9,063 nt of DNA from Candidatus Mediterraneibacter gallistercoris. Lineage in GTDB: Bacteria; Bacillota_A; Clostridia; Lachnospirales; Lachnospiraceae. Both the position numbers and the translations under genes were made by a program. The notes under the pieces are model-generated. The model was given only the letters and a program-made list of their open reading frames with translations. It did not search any database and was not told the origin of the DNA. The stretch covers positions 1 to 9,063 of the forward strand of contig DWWI01000033.1 of the NCBI GenBank assembly GCA_019119745.1, in the 5' to 3' direction. Shown in pieces: positions 1 to 6,242 of this stretch. Positions within the stretch are counted from its first letter, which is position 1, and every line of letters starts with the position of its first letter.

Positions 1-4
1 GCTA

Positions 5-2098
5 ATGTTCTTTGAGCTTATTGCACGCAACAGTAAAAGAAGCAGAAAAGAGAACGGGTTGTTTTTTACGACGCTTCTGGTCTCTGTCATAGCATTTTAT
101 ATTATACTTTCCCTTTCGCGTCAGGATGTTATGCTGTTCCTCCGGAAAATGGAAAGTGACGCGGTAAACCGTCTCCTTTCAATGATCCCCGTGTTTTATG
201 TGCTTACGCTGGTCGTCCTGTTCTTTCTGATCTACTTTGCCAGCAAGTTCCAGCTGGAACGGCGCAGGCATGAGTTCGGGATGTATCTGATGATGGGAAT
301 GACGAGGAACAGGCTGTTTGTGCTTCTTCTGGCAGAGGATGTGCGGAGCAGTGTTATCGCCCTGCTGATCGGACTTCCGGCTGGAGTTCTTCTGTCGGAG
401 CTGATCAGTCTGGTGACTGCCCGGCTGGTGGGACTGGGGATCATCGGACACCGGTTCACACTGTCGCTCCATGCCGTTTTGCTGACAGCAGCAGGGTTCT
501 TCCTCATTAAGCTCGCTGCTTTCCTGATCCTGAGCGCGAAGATCAGCCGTCAGGAGATTGGCTCTCTTCTCTCGGAAAAGCCGGAGGAGACAAAGAAGCA
601 GCATCCGGCGTTTGTCTACGGACTGGCGCTTCTTGCAGGCGTCTTATGTCTCGGGACGGCATATTATCTGGCGATCCAGGGAATGTCATGGACACAGATC
701 CGGACGATGGGGCTTACGCTGCTGCTGGGATTCGCCGGAACACTGCTGTTCTTCTACGGACTGAGATATATATTTGACCTGATCATAAAAGGCGGGAAGA
801 AGGACAGGCGTCTGCATATATTCAATGTGCGCCAGCTGCAGGAAAATGTAGTCCGTAAGTCGGCCACCATGGCAGTCACCTCTCTTCTGATACTCGGCGC
901 CCTCTGCTGCTTTGGCGCCGGAGTGGCGATCGCGGTCAGCTACGGACAGTCAGAGCCTCATGTGATGGACTACACATTTATACCGGAGTATACGGATGAA
1001 CCGAATCAGGAGCAGGGAGCTTCGGATATACTTGATACATTGCACAAGGCAGGTCTGGACACGGAGTTTTCCAGATTGTTTAAAATGAAGATCGGCCGTA
1101 TCCGCACAACTGATATCCTCACGGAAGATGATTTTGAAAATGCATATTCGATGGACGATGTAATGGAGCAGATTGCCGGATTTCCGGCTTCGGATGACAA
1201 GGATGTGCTTTTAAATACGCTGAGTTTTGCAGACTATCCGTATTTGATCTCGCTTTCCGGATATAATGAACTGCTCCGTGCCGCCGGGCTTCCCGAGATA
1301 AAGCTGGGGAAAGATGAAGCGGCTGTATATATGGACAGTACTTATGTCAATGAGAAACGGCTTGAGATCATGGACTCTGTCCTTGCAAAACACCCGGAAG
1401 CTAAGATCGGCGGGAATCCGGTGAAGCTGACCGGTAAGGTACAGACGACAGCGGTTGTGACGGACTATTCGATCACGCTGTCATTTGCGCTGATCCTGCC
1501 GGATGATGCATTTCAATATTATACGCAGGATCAGTACGACATCTATGTCAATGGAGTGCTGGATAGCAGTACCACAGAAAAAACCGGCCTTATGCAGGCA
1601 ATCTCCGGGATGAATGAGAGATTAAACGGGACCGGCCTGTACTACGAGAGCTATCTGCAGAACATGGGGCGGCAGCTTTTCTATATGGTGGCGGCAAGCT
1701 ATATTACGATCTATCTGGCGGTCATCTTTCTGATCGTGGCAAATACCGTAATCGGAGTGCAGTTCCTGATGAACCAGCAGCGGACGAACCGGAGATATAG
1801 AACGCTCATCAAGCTGGGCGCCGGGTATGAAACACTGTGCGGATCTGCCAAGAAACAGATCAACTGGTATTTCGGGATCCCGGTGCTTGCGGCGGCTGTA
1901 AGCAGCCTGTTTGCAGTGCGGGCGCTGTTCACAGGGATCCTCTCGTCCAGAACTCAGGGGACGATCGGAGAGATGCTGGTTATTTCCGCGGCTATGATTC
2001 TTGTACTGTGTGTGATAGAATGTATTTATATGACGGCGGTAAAACGCTCCAGCAACAGATATCTATTGACATTAATGGCGCCGGAGCGGGAAGAGTAA
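5..2098 (+). CDS. BceB-like ABC transporter permease (FtsX-domain, 10 TM)
   Basis: Membrane permease of a Bce-type peptide-sensing and detoxification ABC transporter. In this family the transporter frees cell-envelope targets from antimicrobial peptides and reports its activity to a partner kinase. The 697-residue protein shows ten hydrophobic segments, at about 19-39, 58-79, 115-138, 157-177, 203-222, 235-257, 289-312, 560-582, 622-640 and 655-676. A large outside domain lies between helices 7 and 8 (about 313-558), which is the diagnostic BceB topology. FtsX-like regions lie around 60-180 and 565-680, and the cytoplasmic stretch ERRRHEFGMYLMMGMTRNR (85-103) is typical of the first. The ATG belongs to a TAATG overlap (TAA at 3-5), suggesting translational coupling to an upstream gene outside the window, expected to be the ATPase. 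The regulator and kinase genes follow on the same strand. The outside domain, about 245 residues, seems slightly long for the family. The peptide ligand is unknown. Confidence 0.9.
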   Translation: MFFELIARNSKRSRKENGLFFTTLLVSVIAFYIILSLSRQDVMLFLRKMESDAVNRLLSMIPVFYVLTLVVLFFLIYFASKFQLERRRHEFGMYLMMGMTRNRLFVLLLAEDVRSSVIALLIGLPAGVLLSELISLVTARLVGLGIIGHRFTLSLHAVLLTAAGFFLIKLAAFLILSAKISRQEIGSLLSEKPEETKKQHPAFVYGLALLAGVLCLGTAYYLAIQGMSWTQIRTMGLTLLLGFAGTLLFFYGLRYIFDLIIKGGKKDRRLHIFNVRQLQENVVRKSATMAVTSLLILGALCCFGAGVAIAVSYGQSEPHVMDYTFIPEYTDEPNQEQGASDILDTLHKAGLDTEFSRLFKMKIGRIRTTDILTEDDFENAYSMDDVMEQIAGFPASDDKDVLLNTLSFADYPYLISLSGYNELLRAAGLPEIKLGKDEAAVYMDSTYVNEKRLEIMDSVLAKHPEAKIGGNPVKLTGKVQTTAVVTDYSITLSFALILPDDAFQYYTQDQYDIYVNGVLDSSTTEKTGLMQAISGMNERLNGTGLYYESYLQNMGRQLFYMVAASYITIYLAVIFLIVANTVIGVQFLMNQQRTNRRYRTLIKLGAGYETLCGSAKKQINWYFGIPVLAAAVSSLFAVRALFTGILSSRTQGTIGEMLVISAAMILVLCVIECIYMTAVKRSSNRYLLTLMAPEREE

Positions 2099-2151
2099 CG
2101 GTCTGGATCCGAAGCAGGATACGGCAGAAGCAACGGGAGGTGCGGGAAAGG

Positions 2152-2892
2152 ATGAAGCGGATCGCGGTGGTTGAGGATGAACCTCTTATGCGCGAAGAAC
2201 TGGCGCTGATGCTCAGAAGAGCAGGATATGAGACAGCAGAGATCAGTGAATTCGACCATGTGACAAAGCAGTTGGAAGAACTCACGCCTGATCTTGTAGT
2301 GCTCGATCTCAATCTCCCGGGCGTCAGCGGATTTCAGATCTGCCGGGAGATCAAGGGGAGAAGCCCGTTCCCGGTACTCGTGCTGACCTCCCGGGATCAG
2401 ATGAAAGATGAGCTCCGGGCTCTTGAGCTCGGAGCGGATGAATATCTGACGAAACCGTGCCGCAGGGAGAGATTCCTTGCCCGGGTATCCAATGTACTGA
2501 AGCGCTATGAAGGACGGGCGAATCTGCTGGAGGGCCCGGGCTTCCTTCTGGACCGTCAGACTTATACGCTGTACATCAACAACAGCTCTATCGTGCTTCC
2601 GAAAAATCAGGGGAAACTGCTTGAGATATTTCTGTCCCGCAGCGACAGGACGGTTGCAAAAGACGACCTGTGTACAGCGCTGTGGGGCACGACAGAGTTT
2701 ATTGACGAGAATGCGCTGCAGGTCAACCTGACAAGGCTGAAAAAGACGATGGCAGGACTGGGCATGAGGCAGAAGATCGCGCCGGTCCGGGGTGTGGGAT
2801 ATCGTCTGGAGCATGAAGAAGGCTCAGAAAATGATCCCGGGGAAAATCCCGGGCAGGATACCGATCTTGGAAATGAGGAGGAGTCATTATGA
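2152..2892 (+). CDS. OmpR-family response regulator (BceR-like)
   Basis: DNA-binding response regulator of 246 residues, cytoplasmic, likely activating the neighbouring transporter genes when phosphorylated by the kinase encoded next. The receiver domain (about 1-118) has the acidic pocket D9/E10, phospho-acceptor D52 in VVLDLNLPG, T79 in LVLTS and K101 in YLTKP. A winged-helix output domain (about 125-219) ends in the RGVGYRL signature at 213-219. The reading frame is open upstream to 1837, but ATG 2152 is chosen because the receiver fold begins there (MKRIAVVEDE), a GGGAGG lies at 2135-2140, and earlier starts would overlap the permease. There is a 53-nt gap after the permease and a 4-nt ATGA overlap with the kinase. 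An acidic, low-complexity tail of about 27 residues (220-246, rich in E, D, G, N) follows the winged helix and is not part of the usual fold. Its codons carry the kinase ribosome binding site (GAGGAGGAG, 2875-2883). Confidence 0.93.
   Translation: MKRIAVVEDEPLMREELALMLRRAGYETAEISEFDHVTKQLEELTPDLVVLDLNLPGVSGFQICREIKGRSPFPVLVLTSRDQMKDELRALELGADEYLTKPCRRERFLARVSNVLKRYEGRANLLEGPGFLLDRQTYTLYINNSSIVLPKNQGKLLEIFLSRSDRTVAKDDLCTALWGTTEFIDENALQVNLTRLKKTMAGLGMRQKIAPVRGVGYRLEHEEGSENDPGENPGQDTDLGNEEESL
2836..2853 (+). repeat. GC-rich hairpin inside the regulator tail, upstream of the kinase start
   Basis: CCCGGG at 2836-2841 and CCCGGG at 2848-2853 are separated by six bases (GAAAAT) and would form a six-pair all-GC stem in mRNA. 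It lies 21 nt before the kinase ribosome binding site, within codons for the acidic C-terminal tail of the regulator. It could tune kinase translation or be a by-product of codon choice (Pro-Gly). No T-run follows, so it is not a terminator. Confidence 0.4.
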
Positions 2893-3959
2893 GAAACAGA
2901 CTGCTTTATCTGTCCCGGTATCTGCCGTGGCTTGCGCTGCTGCTCGGACTTGATGCGGTCTCGGCGCTCCTGCTGTGGCTCTCCGAGGCGGAGGCTTTTG
3001 GCGCGCTGATCCCTCTGATCCTGCTGGGAACAGTCCTTTTGTTCTTTGTGACAGCATTTGTATTGATCCGCGTGGAGCAGAAGCGGGAAAATGCGTTTCA
3101 TGCATTTTTGAATAATCCTGACCTTATCAATGAAGAAAATCTGATCCGGACGGTCAGCGCGTCTAAACGGGAATCTGTCCGACTGCTGGGAACTGTCCTG
3201 CGGGAAAAAGACCTCGCCTGCAGCAGAGCGAAAGCTGCGGCTGAGGATTATGAGGAATATGTGGAGGCGTGGGCGCATGAGACGAAAACCCCGCTGTCAC
3301 TTCTGACAATGGTACTGGACAATCAGGGAAAAGAAATCCCCGCACCGGCTGCATTTAAGCTGGAATATGTCCGAAGCCGGCTTCAGGAGTATATCAGCCA
3401 GATCCTTTACTACGCGCGCCTAAAGAGCGGAAGAAAAGATTATCTGTTCGAGTATGTAGATCTGAATGACTGCATCGGTGAGGTGCTGGAAGATTACAGT
3501 CTGCTCCTGAAAGAGAAAAATTTCAAAATTACTGTACAGGTGCCTGAGCTTTCGGTCTATACTGACCGGAGAGGAATTGAATTCCTGCTTGGACAGATCG
3601 TGAGCAACACAGTGAAATACTGTACCGTAATGTCCGGGAACACTGCTAAAGCGGCTGATACGGAGAAGTATGATAGTGCTGACAGAGAAAAACGGCCGGA
3701 ACTTAAAATTACTTTGGAGCAGTCGGAGACAGAAGATGTGCTGCGTATACAAGATAATGGGATCGGTGTGAAAGAATGTGACCTGCCCTATATCTTTGAA
3801 AAAGGATTTACGGGAGATTCGGAGAATTCAGGAAAGAAGGCAACGGGAATGGGACTCTATCTGTCAAAGAAGATGGCGGATGATCTGAAACTCGGACTGG
3901 AAGCCGCATCTGAGCGGGGCGCGGGATTTGAGATGGCAATCCGGTTCCCGCGGGTCTGA
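2889..3959 (+). CDS. Intramembrane-sensing sensor histidine kinase (BceS-like)
   Basis: Sensor kinase of 356 residues. Two transmembrane helices (about 11-31 and 38-60) are joined by only about six residues, so there is no real outside sensing domain. In BceS-type kinases of this build, the signal comes from the partner permease within the membrane. The dimerisation region carries the phospho-acceptor H130 in WAHETKTPLS. The ATPase domain shows the N-box (QIVSNTVKY, N240), G1 (DNGIGV, 289-294), F-box (FEKGFTG, 303-309) and G2 (GMGLYLSK, 320-327). A hydrophilic stretch at about 247-270, rich in Lys, Asp, Glu and Ala, lengthens the segment between N-box and the next strand. The start is set by GAGGAGGAG five bases upstream and by the ATGA overlap with the regulator stop, indicating coupled translation. 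It should phosphorylate the regulator's D52. The stop codon abuts the palindromic region; no classic terminator follows directly. Confidence 0.93.
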   Translation: MRNRLLYLSRYLPWLALLLGLDAVSALLLWLSEAEAFGALIPLILLGTVLLFFVTAFVLIRVEQKRENAFHAFLNNPDLINEENLIRTVSASKRESVRLLGTVLREKDLACSRAKAAAEDYEEYVEAWAHETKTPLSLLTMVLDNQGKEIPAPAAFKLEYVRSRLQEYISQILYYARLKSGRKDYLFEYVDLNDCIGEVLEDYSLLLKEKNFKITVQVPELSVYTDRRGIEFLLGQIVSNTVKYCTVMSGNTAKAADTEKYDSADREKRPELKITLEQSETEDVLRIQDNGIGVKECDLPYIFEKGFTGDSENSGKKATGMGLYLSKKMADDLKLGLEAASERGAGFEMAIRFPRV

Positions 3960-3964
3960 GAAAG

Positions 3965-3985
3965 AAATTTCGATTTTTCGGACTG
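3965..3985 (+). repeat. Left terminal inverted repeat of the palindromic region
   Basis: AAATTTCGATTTTT followed by CGGACTG. The first 14 bases match the complement of 4827-4840 exactly, and the following CGGACTG matches the complement of the right side only approximately (CAGTCTG after one extra T). TTTTCGGACTG at 3975-3985 recurs exactly at 4655-4665, the left end of hairpin C. The AAAT-TTCG-ATTT core could itself form a weak four-pair stem followed by T residues. Confidence 0.75.
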
Positions 3986-4324
3986 AATGCCAATGGGATA
4001 AGGTCCGAAATCAGATGGAGATGAGGCAATGAAATACTTTTTAAGATAACCGGCATGTGCTTCAGGCTCCGCTCCGTAATTCGGGAAAAATTAAAGGTTC
4101 TGAAAGCTGACTAAAAGCAAAGCCTGAAAATGGGAAACTCGTCTTCGACTCAAACACCCCATTTTCAGGCTTAACGTCATCATTCAGAGCCTTAACTTTT
4201 CCATCGAATTACTTCGAAGTCGCCTTCCTCACATACCAGTCATCTCTTTAAAGTCTTTCGATGCCTCGTCTCCATCTGTTTTCTGTTTTATCGGATTCGG
4301 CATCCAGTCCGACAAATATGAAAG
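3967..4324. repeat. Large imperfect inverted repeat A
   Basis: The left arm 3967-4134 and right arm 4158-4324 are complementary along almost their full length, roughly seven bases in ten by eye, with small indels. The strongest blocks are CGGACTGAATGCC (3979-3991) against GGCATCCAGTCCG, and CAGATGGAGATGAGGCA (4012-4028) against TGCCTCGTCTCCATCTG. The innermost block AGCCTGAAAATGGG (4121-4134) is perfect against 4158-4171. The 23-base loop 4135-4157 contains a small GTC-TTC-GAC stem. Mismatches are mostly single substitutions, many of them transitions, spread along the stem. This fits an old palindrome that has drifted, or a structure kept under loose selection. No protein feature was recognised in either arm. 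Confidence 0.8.
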
Positions 4325-4344
4325 CTAAAGAAACCGGTTAAAGG

Positions 4345-4368
4345 GGTAAATAATGAGGTAAATAATAG
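4345..4368 (+). repeat. Two-copy 12-bp tandem repeat
   Basis: GGTAAATAATGA at 4345-4356 is followed directly by GGTAAATAATAG at 4357-4368; the units differ only in the last two bases. It lies between hairpin A and the core of hairpin B, on the AT-rich outer left flank of B. It may be a replication slippage product. No function is apparent. Confidence 0.55.
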
Positions 4369-4397
4369 AGAAGAAGTTATTTATTGGTCTGGCGGAG

Positions 4398-4411
4398 AAC
4401 CGTTTCCGGTT
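4398..4411. repeat. Small side hairpin on left arm of B
   Basis: AACCG (4398-4402) and CGGTT (4407-4411) enclose a four-base loop TTTC. It sits on the left flank of the B core, roughly opposite the 18-bp palindrome on the right flank. The folded B region would therefore be branched rather than a simple rod. Confidence 0.5.
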
Positions 4412-4418
4412 ATGGAGA

Positions 4419-4549
4419 TTTCTGGTTCCGCTTGTTCGTCTTATATCTGCAGAGAACATCCCGTGTCAAGCCTGCGAAGCACCTGTTTACAGGCAAGGGC
4501 TTGACACGGGATGTTCCTGCAGATGAATATTATTCAAGCGGACCAGAAA
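4419..4549. repeat. Imperfect inverted repeat B, core stem
   Basis: ATCTGCAG plus GAACATCCCGTGTCAAGCC (4445-4472, with a bulged A at 4453) pairs with 4498-4524, giving 27 consecutive pairs broken by a single bulge. Outside it, TTTCTGGTTCCGCTTG (4419-4434) pairs with CAAGCGGACCAGAAA (4535-4549) with one bulged base. The apical part 4473-4497 contains a CCTGT/ACAGG mini-stem. Weaker complementarity continues outwards towards about 4343 and 4650. This is the best-preserved stem in the region. No T-run follows it on either strand. Confidence 0.82.
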
Positions 4550-4555
4550 TTAATG

Positions 4556-4573
4556 CGGTTCGAATTCGAACCG
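4556..4573. repeat. Perfect 18-bp palindrome
   Basis: CGGTTCGAATTCGAACCG is a perfect 18-bp palindrome with no central spacer. It lies on the right flank of the B core, six bases outside the CAAGCGGACCAGAAA block. It could be a side branch of the folded RNA, a cruciform point, or a binding site for a dimeric protein. Its CGGTT/AACCG arms echo the small hairpin at 4398-4411. Confidence 0.75.
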
Positions 4574-4654
4574 GAAGATCAACAAATCCTAAATCAGCCA
4601 AAAAAATAAGATCATAGTCGGGGAAGTCGCTTCTTCTACCCGTTTGCATGAGAA

Positions 4655-4841
4655 TTTTCGGACTGGGAAAGAAAGCAGCCGGGGGCAGGTATTGCGTACG
4701 CACCGTTGGAGCAGCGTCGGCTCTTAGAGCGCGTCTTTTGCGCTCTTATGTACCGTTACGCTGCGACCGAATGAAAATGTGTGCGTTAGCAATACCTGCC
4801 TCCCGGCGGATACTTTATCAGACTGAAAAAATCGAAATTTT
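4655..4841. repeat. Large imperfect inverted repeat C
   Basis: The left arm 4655-4732 pairs with the right arm 4740-4841, with a loop of about 7 bases (GTCTTTT). The strongest stem is GCCGGGGGCAGGTATTGC (4678-4695) against GCAATACCTGCCTCCCGGC (4789-4807), broken only by one bulged base. It continues into ACGCAC against GTGCGT. The apical stem AGAGCGC (4726-4732) pairs with GCGCTCT (4740-4746), and CAGCG (4712-4716) pairs with CGCTG (4759-4763). The base begins with the same TTTTCGGACTG found at the left end of A. The right base carries the region's right terminal repeat and runs almost to the carrier stop codon. Confidence 0.8.
4820..4840 (-). repeat. Right terminal inverted repeat of the palindromic region
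   Basis: On the minus strand this reads AAATTTCGATTTTT then TCAGTCT. The first 14 bases are identical to the left end at 3965-3978, and the rest matches CGGACTG approximately. It begins 4 nt after the carrier stop codon, so both convergent genes are followed by the same sequence at nearly the same distance. The T-run after the AAAT-TTCG-ATTT mini-stem could weakly favour termination of carrier transcripts. Confidence 0.75.
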
Positions 4842-4844
4842 ACT

Positions 4845-6242
4845 TTAGAACGGCCCATACCCGATTCCATAGGCGATCATGACAAGTACGAACGCGCTGA
4901 CGATAAATCCAAGGTATATCTTCCAGCAGAATTTGATCCATGAGCCGTAGTCCACGCCGCACATGGACAGCTGGACAAGGGAGCTTCCCGGCCAGAAACT
5001 GTTTGTAATGCCGTCTCCGTACTGATAAGTGAGCACGAGCACCTGCTGGTTGATGTTCAGTATCTTTCCAAGAGGCTGCAGGATCGGCATAACGATGACG
5101 GCCTTTCCGCTTCCGGATACGACAAGGAAGTTGAACAGTGTCACAAAGATGAAGATGATGAGAAGCGCGAGGATGGCACTTCTGTTCTCCAGCAGCTGTG
5201 ACATGCCGTGCACGATCGTATCCATGATGCACGCCTGATTCATAAGCACTACGACTGACTGGGCAAGTCCTACCGCAAAAGCCGCGGCGAATACACGGAC
5301 AGCACCTTTACAGAAGAGCTGGCATGCTTCGCTCGGTCCGATCCGAAAGATAATGGAGAGCAGGATTCCCATGATCACGTAAATTGCCGCGATCTGAGGG
5401 AAGGACCAACCAAGTCTGATACAGCCGAAGCCCTGTATGATAATGATTCCGAGGAATACAAGAAGCCCGAGGGCTCTTCTGATATTCATCTCTTCCATTC
5501 CCTCTGTATGATTTTCCTGCTTCTGGCTCATATATTCTTCGCTCATCAGACTGAGCGCAGGATTCTTCTTGATCTTACGGCAGTATGTATATAATCCGAT
5601 CAGACCGATGATATAGAACACGACCAGTCCGACCGCCCGGAATCCGATACCGGAAAACAGCGGCAGTCCCACGATCTGCTGTGCAACTCCGGTCGTAAAT
5701 GTATTCATCAGACCGGAAGTAAACCCGACAGTGCTTCCTACAATAGCAAGAGCTGTACCCACCATACGGTCGTATCCCAGAGCAAAACCGATGGTCACTG
5801 CAAGAGGATAGAACGGATAAGCAGCCTCTCCATATCCGAGCACTCCGAATACGACAAAGATCGTATAGAAAATGCACACAACGGAAAATTCTTTTCCTTT
5901 TGTCTTTTTCAGAATCATATTGATCCCGGCCCCAAATGCTCCGCTGACTTCAAGCAGATAGATAACACCTGAACTGATAAAGAGCGTTCCCATGATCGTC
6001 GCGCCGTTTACGAAGCCGGTATAGACAGCCTCAAAATAATCCATAAATGTAATAGGCGTCTCATTTTCCACATACTGGAATGTATCCGGATCGATCACGG
6101 TGATCCCTGAGGCGTCCTCAATCCGCTCATATAATCCGCTCGGGATCAAATAAGAGAGAATGACGACAAACAGCATGATAACAAGTAATATAATGAAGAC
6201 ATGAGGCATATGGAAGCCTTTCTTCTGTGTTTTTCCGTTCAT
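4845..6242 (-). CDS. YfcC/DcuC-superfamily membrane carrier
   Basis: Integral membrane carrier of 465 residues with about a dozen hydrophobic segments in two halves, split by a hydrophilic cytoplasmic stretch at about 222-252 (KIKKNP through EEMNIRR). The N-terminus (KKGFHMPHVFIILLVIMLFVVILSYLIPSG), the SGSGKAVIVMPILQPLGKI motif (376-394) and the GDGITNSFWPGS motif (409-420) are typical of the YfcC-like C4-dicarboxylate/amino-acid carrier superfamily. In that fold, paired hairpins with such Ser/Gly motifs form the substrate site. Exact substrate is not predictable. The neighbouring M20 hydrolase suggests an acylated amino acid, dipeptide or related amide. The gene starts 2 nt after the M20 stop. 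Its AAAGGAG (6254-6260) lies inside the end of the M20 gene, so the two are co-transcribed and probably translationally coupled. The AbgT family is an alternative, but the motifs fit YfcC better. Confidence 0.87.
   Translation of the reverse strand: MNGKTQKKGFHMPHVFIILLVIMLFVVILSYLIPSGLYERIEDASGITVIDPDTFQYVENETPITFMDYFEAVYTGFVNGATIMGTLFISSGVIYLLEVSGAFGAGINMILKKTKGKEFSVVCIFYTIFVVFGVLGYGEAAYPFYPLAVTIGFALGYDRMVGTALAIVGSTVGFTSGLMNTFTTGVAQQIVGLPLFSGIGFRAVGLVVFYIIGLIGLYTYCRKIKKNPALSLMSEEYMSQKQENHTEGMEEMNIRRALGLLVFLGIIIIQGFGCIRLGWSFPQIAAIYVIMGILLSIIFRIGPSEACQLFCKGAVRVFAAAFAVGLAQSVVVLMNQACIMDTIVHGMSQLLENRSAILALLIIFIFVTLFNFLVVSGSGKAVIVMPILQPLGKILNINQQVLVLTYQYGDGITNSFWPGSSLVQLSMCGVDYGSWIKFCWKIYLGFIVSAFVLVMIAYGIGYGPF

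Follow-up and report, generated by a model that had tools for sequence, protein, structure and literature searches.

The 876-bp region between two convergent genes of Candidatus Mediterraneibacter gallistercoris was found to belong to a real, multi-copy and modular family of palindromic elements located at gene ends, the core of which was also found beyond the genus. For this family, we showed that many copies have the same ends, that modules are mixed, that ends lie at stop codons far more often than expected by chance, and that the hairpins are preserved by paired changes. We regard it as probable that the family consists of modular, non-autonomous palindromic DNA elements of Mediterraneibacter and relatives, positioned at gene 3′ junctions and often extending from stop to stop, which would be recognized as DNA, spread by an enzyme acting in trans and recombine with one another.

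Structure of the Element and Its Position between Two Genes

The window, i.e., the whole stretch of DNA analysed, comprises 9,063 bp of contig DWWI01000033.1. The element is a composite palindrome (3965–4840) with genes for an FtsX-type permease, a response regulator and a histidine kinase to its left and genes for a DcuC-family carrier, an M20 peptidase and an amidohydrolase to its right. The kinase gene (2889–3959, + strand) ends with a TGA at 3957–3959, leaving 5 nt to the left end of the element, and the stop of the carrier gene (4845–6242, − strand) is located at 4845–4847, 4 nt past the right end. The initial annotation had described a palindromic region of about 880 bp filling a convergent gap, made up of three consecutive large inverted repeats and bracketed by perfect 14-bp terminal repeats 4–5 nt from the stops, and each of these features was borne out. 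The left terminal repeat (3965–3978, + strand), for which the family end consensus is AAATTYCGATTTTTCGKACTG, pairs with the right one (4827–4840, − strand; pair I6). Between them, inverted-repeat pairs and folding delimited three large imperfect palindromes on the + strand: module A, a hairpin of about 345 bp (3973–4317; pairs I4, I2, and I5; alignment A1), module B (approximately 4419–4550; pair I3 with perfect 19-bp arms at 4454–4472 and 4498–4516), and module C, a hairpin of about 175 bp (4655–4829; pair I1; alignment A2). The apical core of module A (4094–4195, + strand) scored 96.1 bits with the covariance model and includes perfect 15-bp arms (4120–4134 and 4158–4172, together 4120–4172, + strand; I5) around a loop carrying AACTCG...CTCAAACA. 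Some copies elsewhere match 3965–4840 entirely or nearly so.

The folding energy of 3940–4860 was −388.1 kcal/mol compared to −257.0 ± 5.1 for 20 shuffles (z −25.65), and that of the opposite strand was −391.2 (z −25.65). The ORFs wholly within the element are short (77 aa), and a 66-aa ORF slightly crosses the right end; such short ORFs in the ORF list, together with the covariation in the alignments, speak against a decayed gene. An Rfam search of the whole window gave nothing at the gathering score, the seven matches obtained for 3900–4900 at E values up to 10 were each far under their gathering scores, and a further Rfam search was likewise without a match, so that a known RNA family was rejected. 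An origin as a plasmid or phage element was likewise rejected, as there was no plasmid match and a single weak 61-base phage match, at the tip of C.

Copies and Module Combinations in Related Genomes

A search with the kinase returned 36 loci, the nearest of which belonged to uncultured Lachnoclostridium and Mediterraneibacter. At locus L001, which holds a homologue of the window kinase, a 784-bp element was found that shares its ends with the element of the window and differs from it in the interior, and at L002, with the same kinase as the window, the C end comes first, an orientation that differs from that of the window; an invertible switch, considered because of this difference, was not adopted as an explanation. 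In six relatives, C-type hairpins, in either orientation, were also observed ahead of this operon, at a distance of about 1 kb upstream from its permease gene (L003:6088–6249, L004:6126–6267, L006:6103–6253, L011:6160–6307, L010:6170–6240, and L035:6210–6324).

BLAST matches to the element were present in all eight related genomes and in 32 of 58 genomes of the genus, where eight candidates were scored per genome, so that per-genome counts are lower bounds; genome G002 gave 76 matches. The initial annotation had proposed that a mobile element would be supported by several copies that share their ends and lie at unrelated loci, and such copies, with ends of identical type and mixed modules, were found both by BLAST and by the end pattern. 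Sites fitting the element-end pattern with at most three mismatches numbered 39 in G002, 30 in G001, and 12 in G054, compared to one over all three genomes for the reversed control. Near-full-length copies were detected in G002 (at 86 and 78%) and G054 (two at 94%), and the module combinations elsewhere were A alone, A-C, B-C, and mixes with another long module, D. Elements ranged from 86 bp, the minimal form, found in G001, to 1034 bp, and modules from about 130 to 345 bp. Thirteen copies of module B, that of the window included, covered at least 90% of 4395–4580, and the tip of C (4699–4785) was the portion that matched in more distant genomes of the genus. The initial inspection had suggested a non-autonomous mobile element, several of these nested together, or a large structured RNA; the many same-ended copies and the varied module combinations make a nested set of non-autonomous elements the best fit, and a one-strand RNA is argued against in the core, with module C leaning otherwise (see below).

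A perfect hairpin at the tip of B (approximately 4437–4512) was absent from L002 (11398–11410) and from G054:C33 and C72 (L138:2997–3361), as if collapsed or cleanly deleted. Furthermore, contigs of the G002, G005, and G008 drafts often start or stop within an element, and these repeats thus seem to break short-read assemblies.

Element Ends Abut Gene Stop Codons

The ends in 61 element rows mostly fitted AAATTYCG and abutted stop codons. Counting only stops that close frames of 60 codons or more, we found a stop at −3 to +10 nt for 80 of 109 distinct ends. This count may be too low, since some element borders were derived from BLAST and may not reach the actual end. The corresponding control values were 8.4 and 6.6% of 6000 intergenic positions on one 390-kb contig of G008. 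The leading end offsets were −2 (30 ends), −1 (16), and 0 (7). Among the 53 elements with two testable ends, 27 had both at stops and 22 had one, and in the control, for which 4932 insertion points were placed in convergent gaps, both-at-stop placement was obtained for 44. The remaining 29 of the 109 ends, located away from any stop, and the 4 of 53 elements with neither end at a stop count against the explanation that we prefer.

On the G008 contig, 34 convergent junctions were predicted with a simple gene finder, and 26 convergent gaps spanned 20–181 bp (median 78). Two large convergent gaps of 681 and 787 bp (G008:C1, near 194440–195122 and 278390–279178; L153–L172) were without a family match and perhaps contain missed genes.

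Partner Switching and the Junction in the Window

Exchange of flanking genes was observed at one set of loci, where P and Q designate the genes flanking the element in L071 (G002) and L115 (G001), and R and S those flanking it in L132 (G006). The arrangement was P-element-Q in G001 and G002, R-element-S in G006, and both P-element-S and Q-element-R in G054, with the two G054 elements being 93.7% identical; R and S almost directly adjoin each other in G042 and lie on separate contigs in G001, by elements of 121 and 183 bp. This pattern is what recombination between elements would give, which we take as support and not as proof, since a long repeat may also give reciprocal misjoins; G001 and G002 are metagenome assemblies, and G054 consists of many contigs. 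The element may be a swappable spacer that lets chromosomes rearrange.

By the same logic, the kinase-carrier junction in the window appears to be new, its flanks resembling different relatives. Module A of the window was 98% similar to G001:C4 over 318 bases and 97–98% similar to copies in G054 and G002, and positions 1–3979 were only 88.7% similar to G001 and 88.6% to G002. The right flank is itself 96% identical to G054, so the similarity of the module to G054 says little. Positions 1–3623 were 95% similar to L003 and the remainder of the kinase was 76% similar to it, the entire kinase being 94–95% similar to G001 and G002, and this switch of ancestry within the left flank indicates that the operon is a mosaic.

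It is a distinct possibility, although not the one that we favour, that the adjacency of kinase, element and carrier in the window results from a metagenome assembly misjoined at a shared repeat, in which case the element would be real and the adjacency would not. The usual neighbours of both genes agree with this, as the carrier was present in 29 genomes of the genus and a convergent rubrerythrin gene faced it in 13 of them (G001, G002, G003, G005, G006, G008, G054, G012, G042, G058, G049, G014, and G036), and the convergent neighbour of the kinase was a 198-aa gene in L001, L006, L009, L010, and L013. In the other 16 carrier genomes no rubrerythrin gene was seen in the flank examined, that of G016 leaving its contig. 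The ancestry of the flanks, the right one being close to G054 as stated and the kinase end being 94–95% similar to G001 and G002 but 76% to G054, also fits a misjoin, as does the finding that contigs in such assemblies often end inside elements. However, no repeat was seen near 3623, where the left flank changes ancestry, which makes natural mosaicism likely, and misjoins at repeats less readily account for the switches in G001, where the elements are as short as 121 and 183 bp.

Elements at the Same Junction in Different Species

The gap between the DcuC-family carrier and rubrerythrin genes was 74 bp with a terminator-like hairpin in G012 and 114 bp with a hairpin in G042, and it measured 197–815 bp with family-type ends in G001, G002, G003, G005, G006, G008, and G054; in G005 (242 bp) the family ends were present, but BLAST with the element gave no match. 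The C-termini of the two proteins (GYGPF and KAENY) were constant with or without the element, and the unchanged stops of the two genes indicate that the element replaces the entire gap. The possibility that the stops are made by the element was rejected as a general explanation on the basis of the same C-termini; the copy of gene R in G042, which adjoins no element, runs about seven codons longer to its stop, and some stops may therefore be new. At another gene pair (L084), 694 bp separated the genes in G002 and about 400 bp in G006, and only a stub was left in G054 (L216), the two ends of which form a small hairpin.

Elements at the same junction across species would also be expected if old insertions had been inherited by descent, which weighs against the explanation that we prefer. 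They bear as well on a different reading, possible but in our opinion somewhat doubtful, in which the family is a cis-acting 3′-end device, i.e., large bidirectional terminators or mRNA-protecting hairpins, maintained for their function and homogenized by gene conversion and not by transposition. Ends that abut stops, the same gene ends bearing elements in several species, and a family element at the site where G012 has its terminator-like hairpin would all be expected of such a device, but it is difficult to reconcile with the number of terminator-like sites in the window (a GC stem followed by a T run; 2 compared to 1.6 ± 1.3 in shuffles), with an element at only 2 of the 34 convergent junctions on the 390-kb G008 contig, and with the variation in interior and in size (86 to 1034 bp). 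Besides, terminators located a few base pairs past a gene are reported to be almost fully repressed in E. coli (PMC4824070).

Paired Changes in the Hairpins

In the alignment of module A (A1; 38 copies, i.e., 56 BLAST rows minus 18 opposite-strand readings of the same copies), 97.4% of the 2731 cells were paired, and a double change was observed in 27 of 72 pairs, compared to 13.1 in shuffles and 4–6 when slid. For module C (A2; 33 copies), 98.9% of cells pair and the double changes amounted to 10 of 49 pairs, compared to 4.3 in shuffles and 0–2 when slid, the structures having been predicted in both cases from the very alignments tested, which favours them. The core common to A and other long modules reads TAAAARCAA, arm, AACTCG..CTCARACA, arm, TTAACG, with loops that are near-invariant and arms that vary freely while staying complementary. 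Among 54 core instances found by pattern, 29 were chosen, and these had double changes in 21 of 25 pairs (17.0 in shuffles, with 1 of 500 equally high) and a covariation score of 0.727 compared to 0.258 ± 0.016; the number of pair types was not above that in shuffles. With the covariance model and stricter filters, the core was found in 16 of 150 genomes of the bacterial family, G008 included. A repeated search with 26 of 30 returned loci, those from other genomes, gave 27 distant cores; in this alignment, which was fitted to the structure, all 25 pairs varied and the covariation was 1.171 compared to 0.214 ± 0.019, and neither the double-change pairs (25 compared to 23.9) nor the pair types were above shuffles. 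The structure is kept through paired changes in modules A and C and in the core. Homologues in close relatives without arm complementarity had been named in the initial annotation as a finding that would refute its reading; the homologues found here keep their complementarity.

Among 391 genomes of the class, 28 contained the exact sequence AACTCGCTTCGCTCARACA, a common form of the core loop, compared to 0 for the reversed sequence; G008, which contains variant forms only, scored 0. The 19-base loop also recurs in viral contigs (L274, L282, L300, and similar) in a few fixed contexts; 60 such stretches with the 19-mer were not counted as family members, since most are without pairing arms. In some distant Clostridia (L339, L343, L352, L353, and others), CTTCGYTAA-like motifs were observed on the 3′ arm of long stems.

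Recognition as DNA or as RNA

An RNA helix selected on one strand would accept G-U and reject A-C. Counted as pair cells, which are not independent events, Watson-Crick, G-U, and A-C combinations numbered 628, 3, and 4 in the 27 distant cores, 682, 12, and 18 in the 29 near cores, 2561, 98, and 55 in module A (23 G-U and 33 A-C columns), and 1536, 61, and 9 in module C (12 and 7 columns). With G-U in just 3 of 631 standard pairs, the distant cores point to a palindrome at the DNA level or to both RNA strands; a core with neither G-U nor A-C suggests either that exact copies of the arms are maintained at the DNA level or that both strands matter, and the equal rarity of the two is evidence against a structured RNA of the classical, one-strand type. 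Module C appears to lean to a one-strand RNA, and its G-U excess fits RNA better than our preferred explanation. A large structured non-coding RNA from one strand is nevertheless improbable for the family, as the strong covariation, the invariant loops and the G-U excess of module C stand against dozens of copies per genome, 0 promoter-like sites compared to 1.3 in shuffles, a core in which G-U is as rare as A-C, and no Rfam family.

Under the preferred explanation of non-autonomous DNA elements, the hairpins would be recognized as DNA, single-stranded or extruded, via the near-invariant core loops, and an enzyme acting in trans on the single-stranded hairpins would spread the copies. Recombination between copies would homogenize them, swap their interiors and invert chromosome segments, and an inserted hairpin could supplant the native bidirectional terminator and form the 3′ end of both mRNAs. 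A wider version can be put forward only tentatively: these may be Clostridia-wide DNA hairpins with a near-invariant loop (often AACTCGCTTCGCTCARACA), small internal loops, and free but exactly inverted arms, which a loop-recognizing enzyme re-copies or moves, with placement linked to gene ends and the stops being the borders of exchangeable, inversion-promoting spacers.

Candidate Mobilizing Partner

An apparently domesticated Y1 transposase gene was located between glyS and an M18 aminopeptidase gene (L240:1465–2232). The encoded 255-aa protein contains an HFH motif and a YIHMNPVNANIV stretch (Pfam Y1_Tnp), and we take it to be RAYT-like. The order glyS-Y1-M18 was the same in L238–L241 (G054, G008, G001, and G002), the Y1 gene thus being present in all four genomes, with a second copy (68% identical) in G001; in the genus, 38 of 58 genomes had Y1 matches at E 1e-20, 32 of them with at least 60% identity. 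No element was detected within about 1.5 kb on each side of the Y1 gene except for one 32-bp BLAST match, and no Y1 homologue was found in the other loci, with five known loci as positive control. Y1 did not track the elements, as there was none at E 1e-20 in G004 and G005, and it was present in genomes that were element-negative by BLAST. The Y1 protein is thus a candidate mobilizer only.

No transposase was seen adjoining any element copy, and no target duplication was clear by eye, the stops and A/T runs at both ends masking short ones. These two results and the lack of a terminator-like excess count against the preferred explanation. The end lists of three genomes contained no facing ends 1–5 kb apart on one contig, as expected for an autonomous parent. 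We infer that the element is mobile.

Comparison with Known Systems

No description of the family was found among the titles and abstract openings listed in the literature searches, which covered few subscription papers; the sources consulted included PMC3733652, PMC2267715, PMC6006769, PMC4824070, and PMC2864571, and the one paper listed for the loop string was unrelated. As intergenic palindromic repeats, the elements belong to a class known in kind; the literature searched contained no match for their size, their placement or their core, and the family may be undescribed. If our explanation is true, each genome in a group of gut bacteria carries tens of palindromes at gene ends, the largest of about 1 kb, unlisted in Rfam, and the family would account for rearranged chromosomes and broken assemblies among these genomes. 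It would also offer a system in which to study the survival of long DNA palindromes in bacteria and to ask which protein recognizes a constant loop irrespective of the stem that bears it.

The large bacterial RNAs ROOL, GOLLD, and OLE are similar in size and complexity of fold, but the present family is without an Rfam match, has many copies and has a core with equivalent strands. Bidirectional rho-independent terminators also lie between convergent genes, and the two ends alone form a small hairpin at L216 in G054, whereas the family elements are hundreds of base pairs long and occur as copies with a common sequence, and terminator signals were not enriched in the window. MITE-like repeats such as BOX, which is modular, RUP, ERIC, YPAL, and Correia are non-autonomous and structured and have terminal inverted repeats, a trait that is present here; the family differs from them in being far longer, in replacing the gap from stop to stop and in having a core common across genera, and neither a target duplication nor a transposase partner was seen for it. 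The REP, BIME, and REPIN sequences are associated with RAYT (TnpA-REP), and their REP hairpins are given as 20–40 bp with a GTAG or CGTC tag (PMC3733652). By eye, this tag was absent from the hairpin foot in the family, where ends and module starts read AAATTYCG.. and TTTTCGGACTG. Unlike these sequences, the family elements measure 86–1034 bp, abut stops and do not flank the RAYT-like gene; like them, they are intergenic palindromes with many copies and a mosaic structure in genomes with a RAYT-like gene (four of four searched), and their hairpins would likewise be read as single-stranded DNA.
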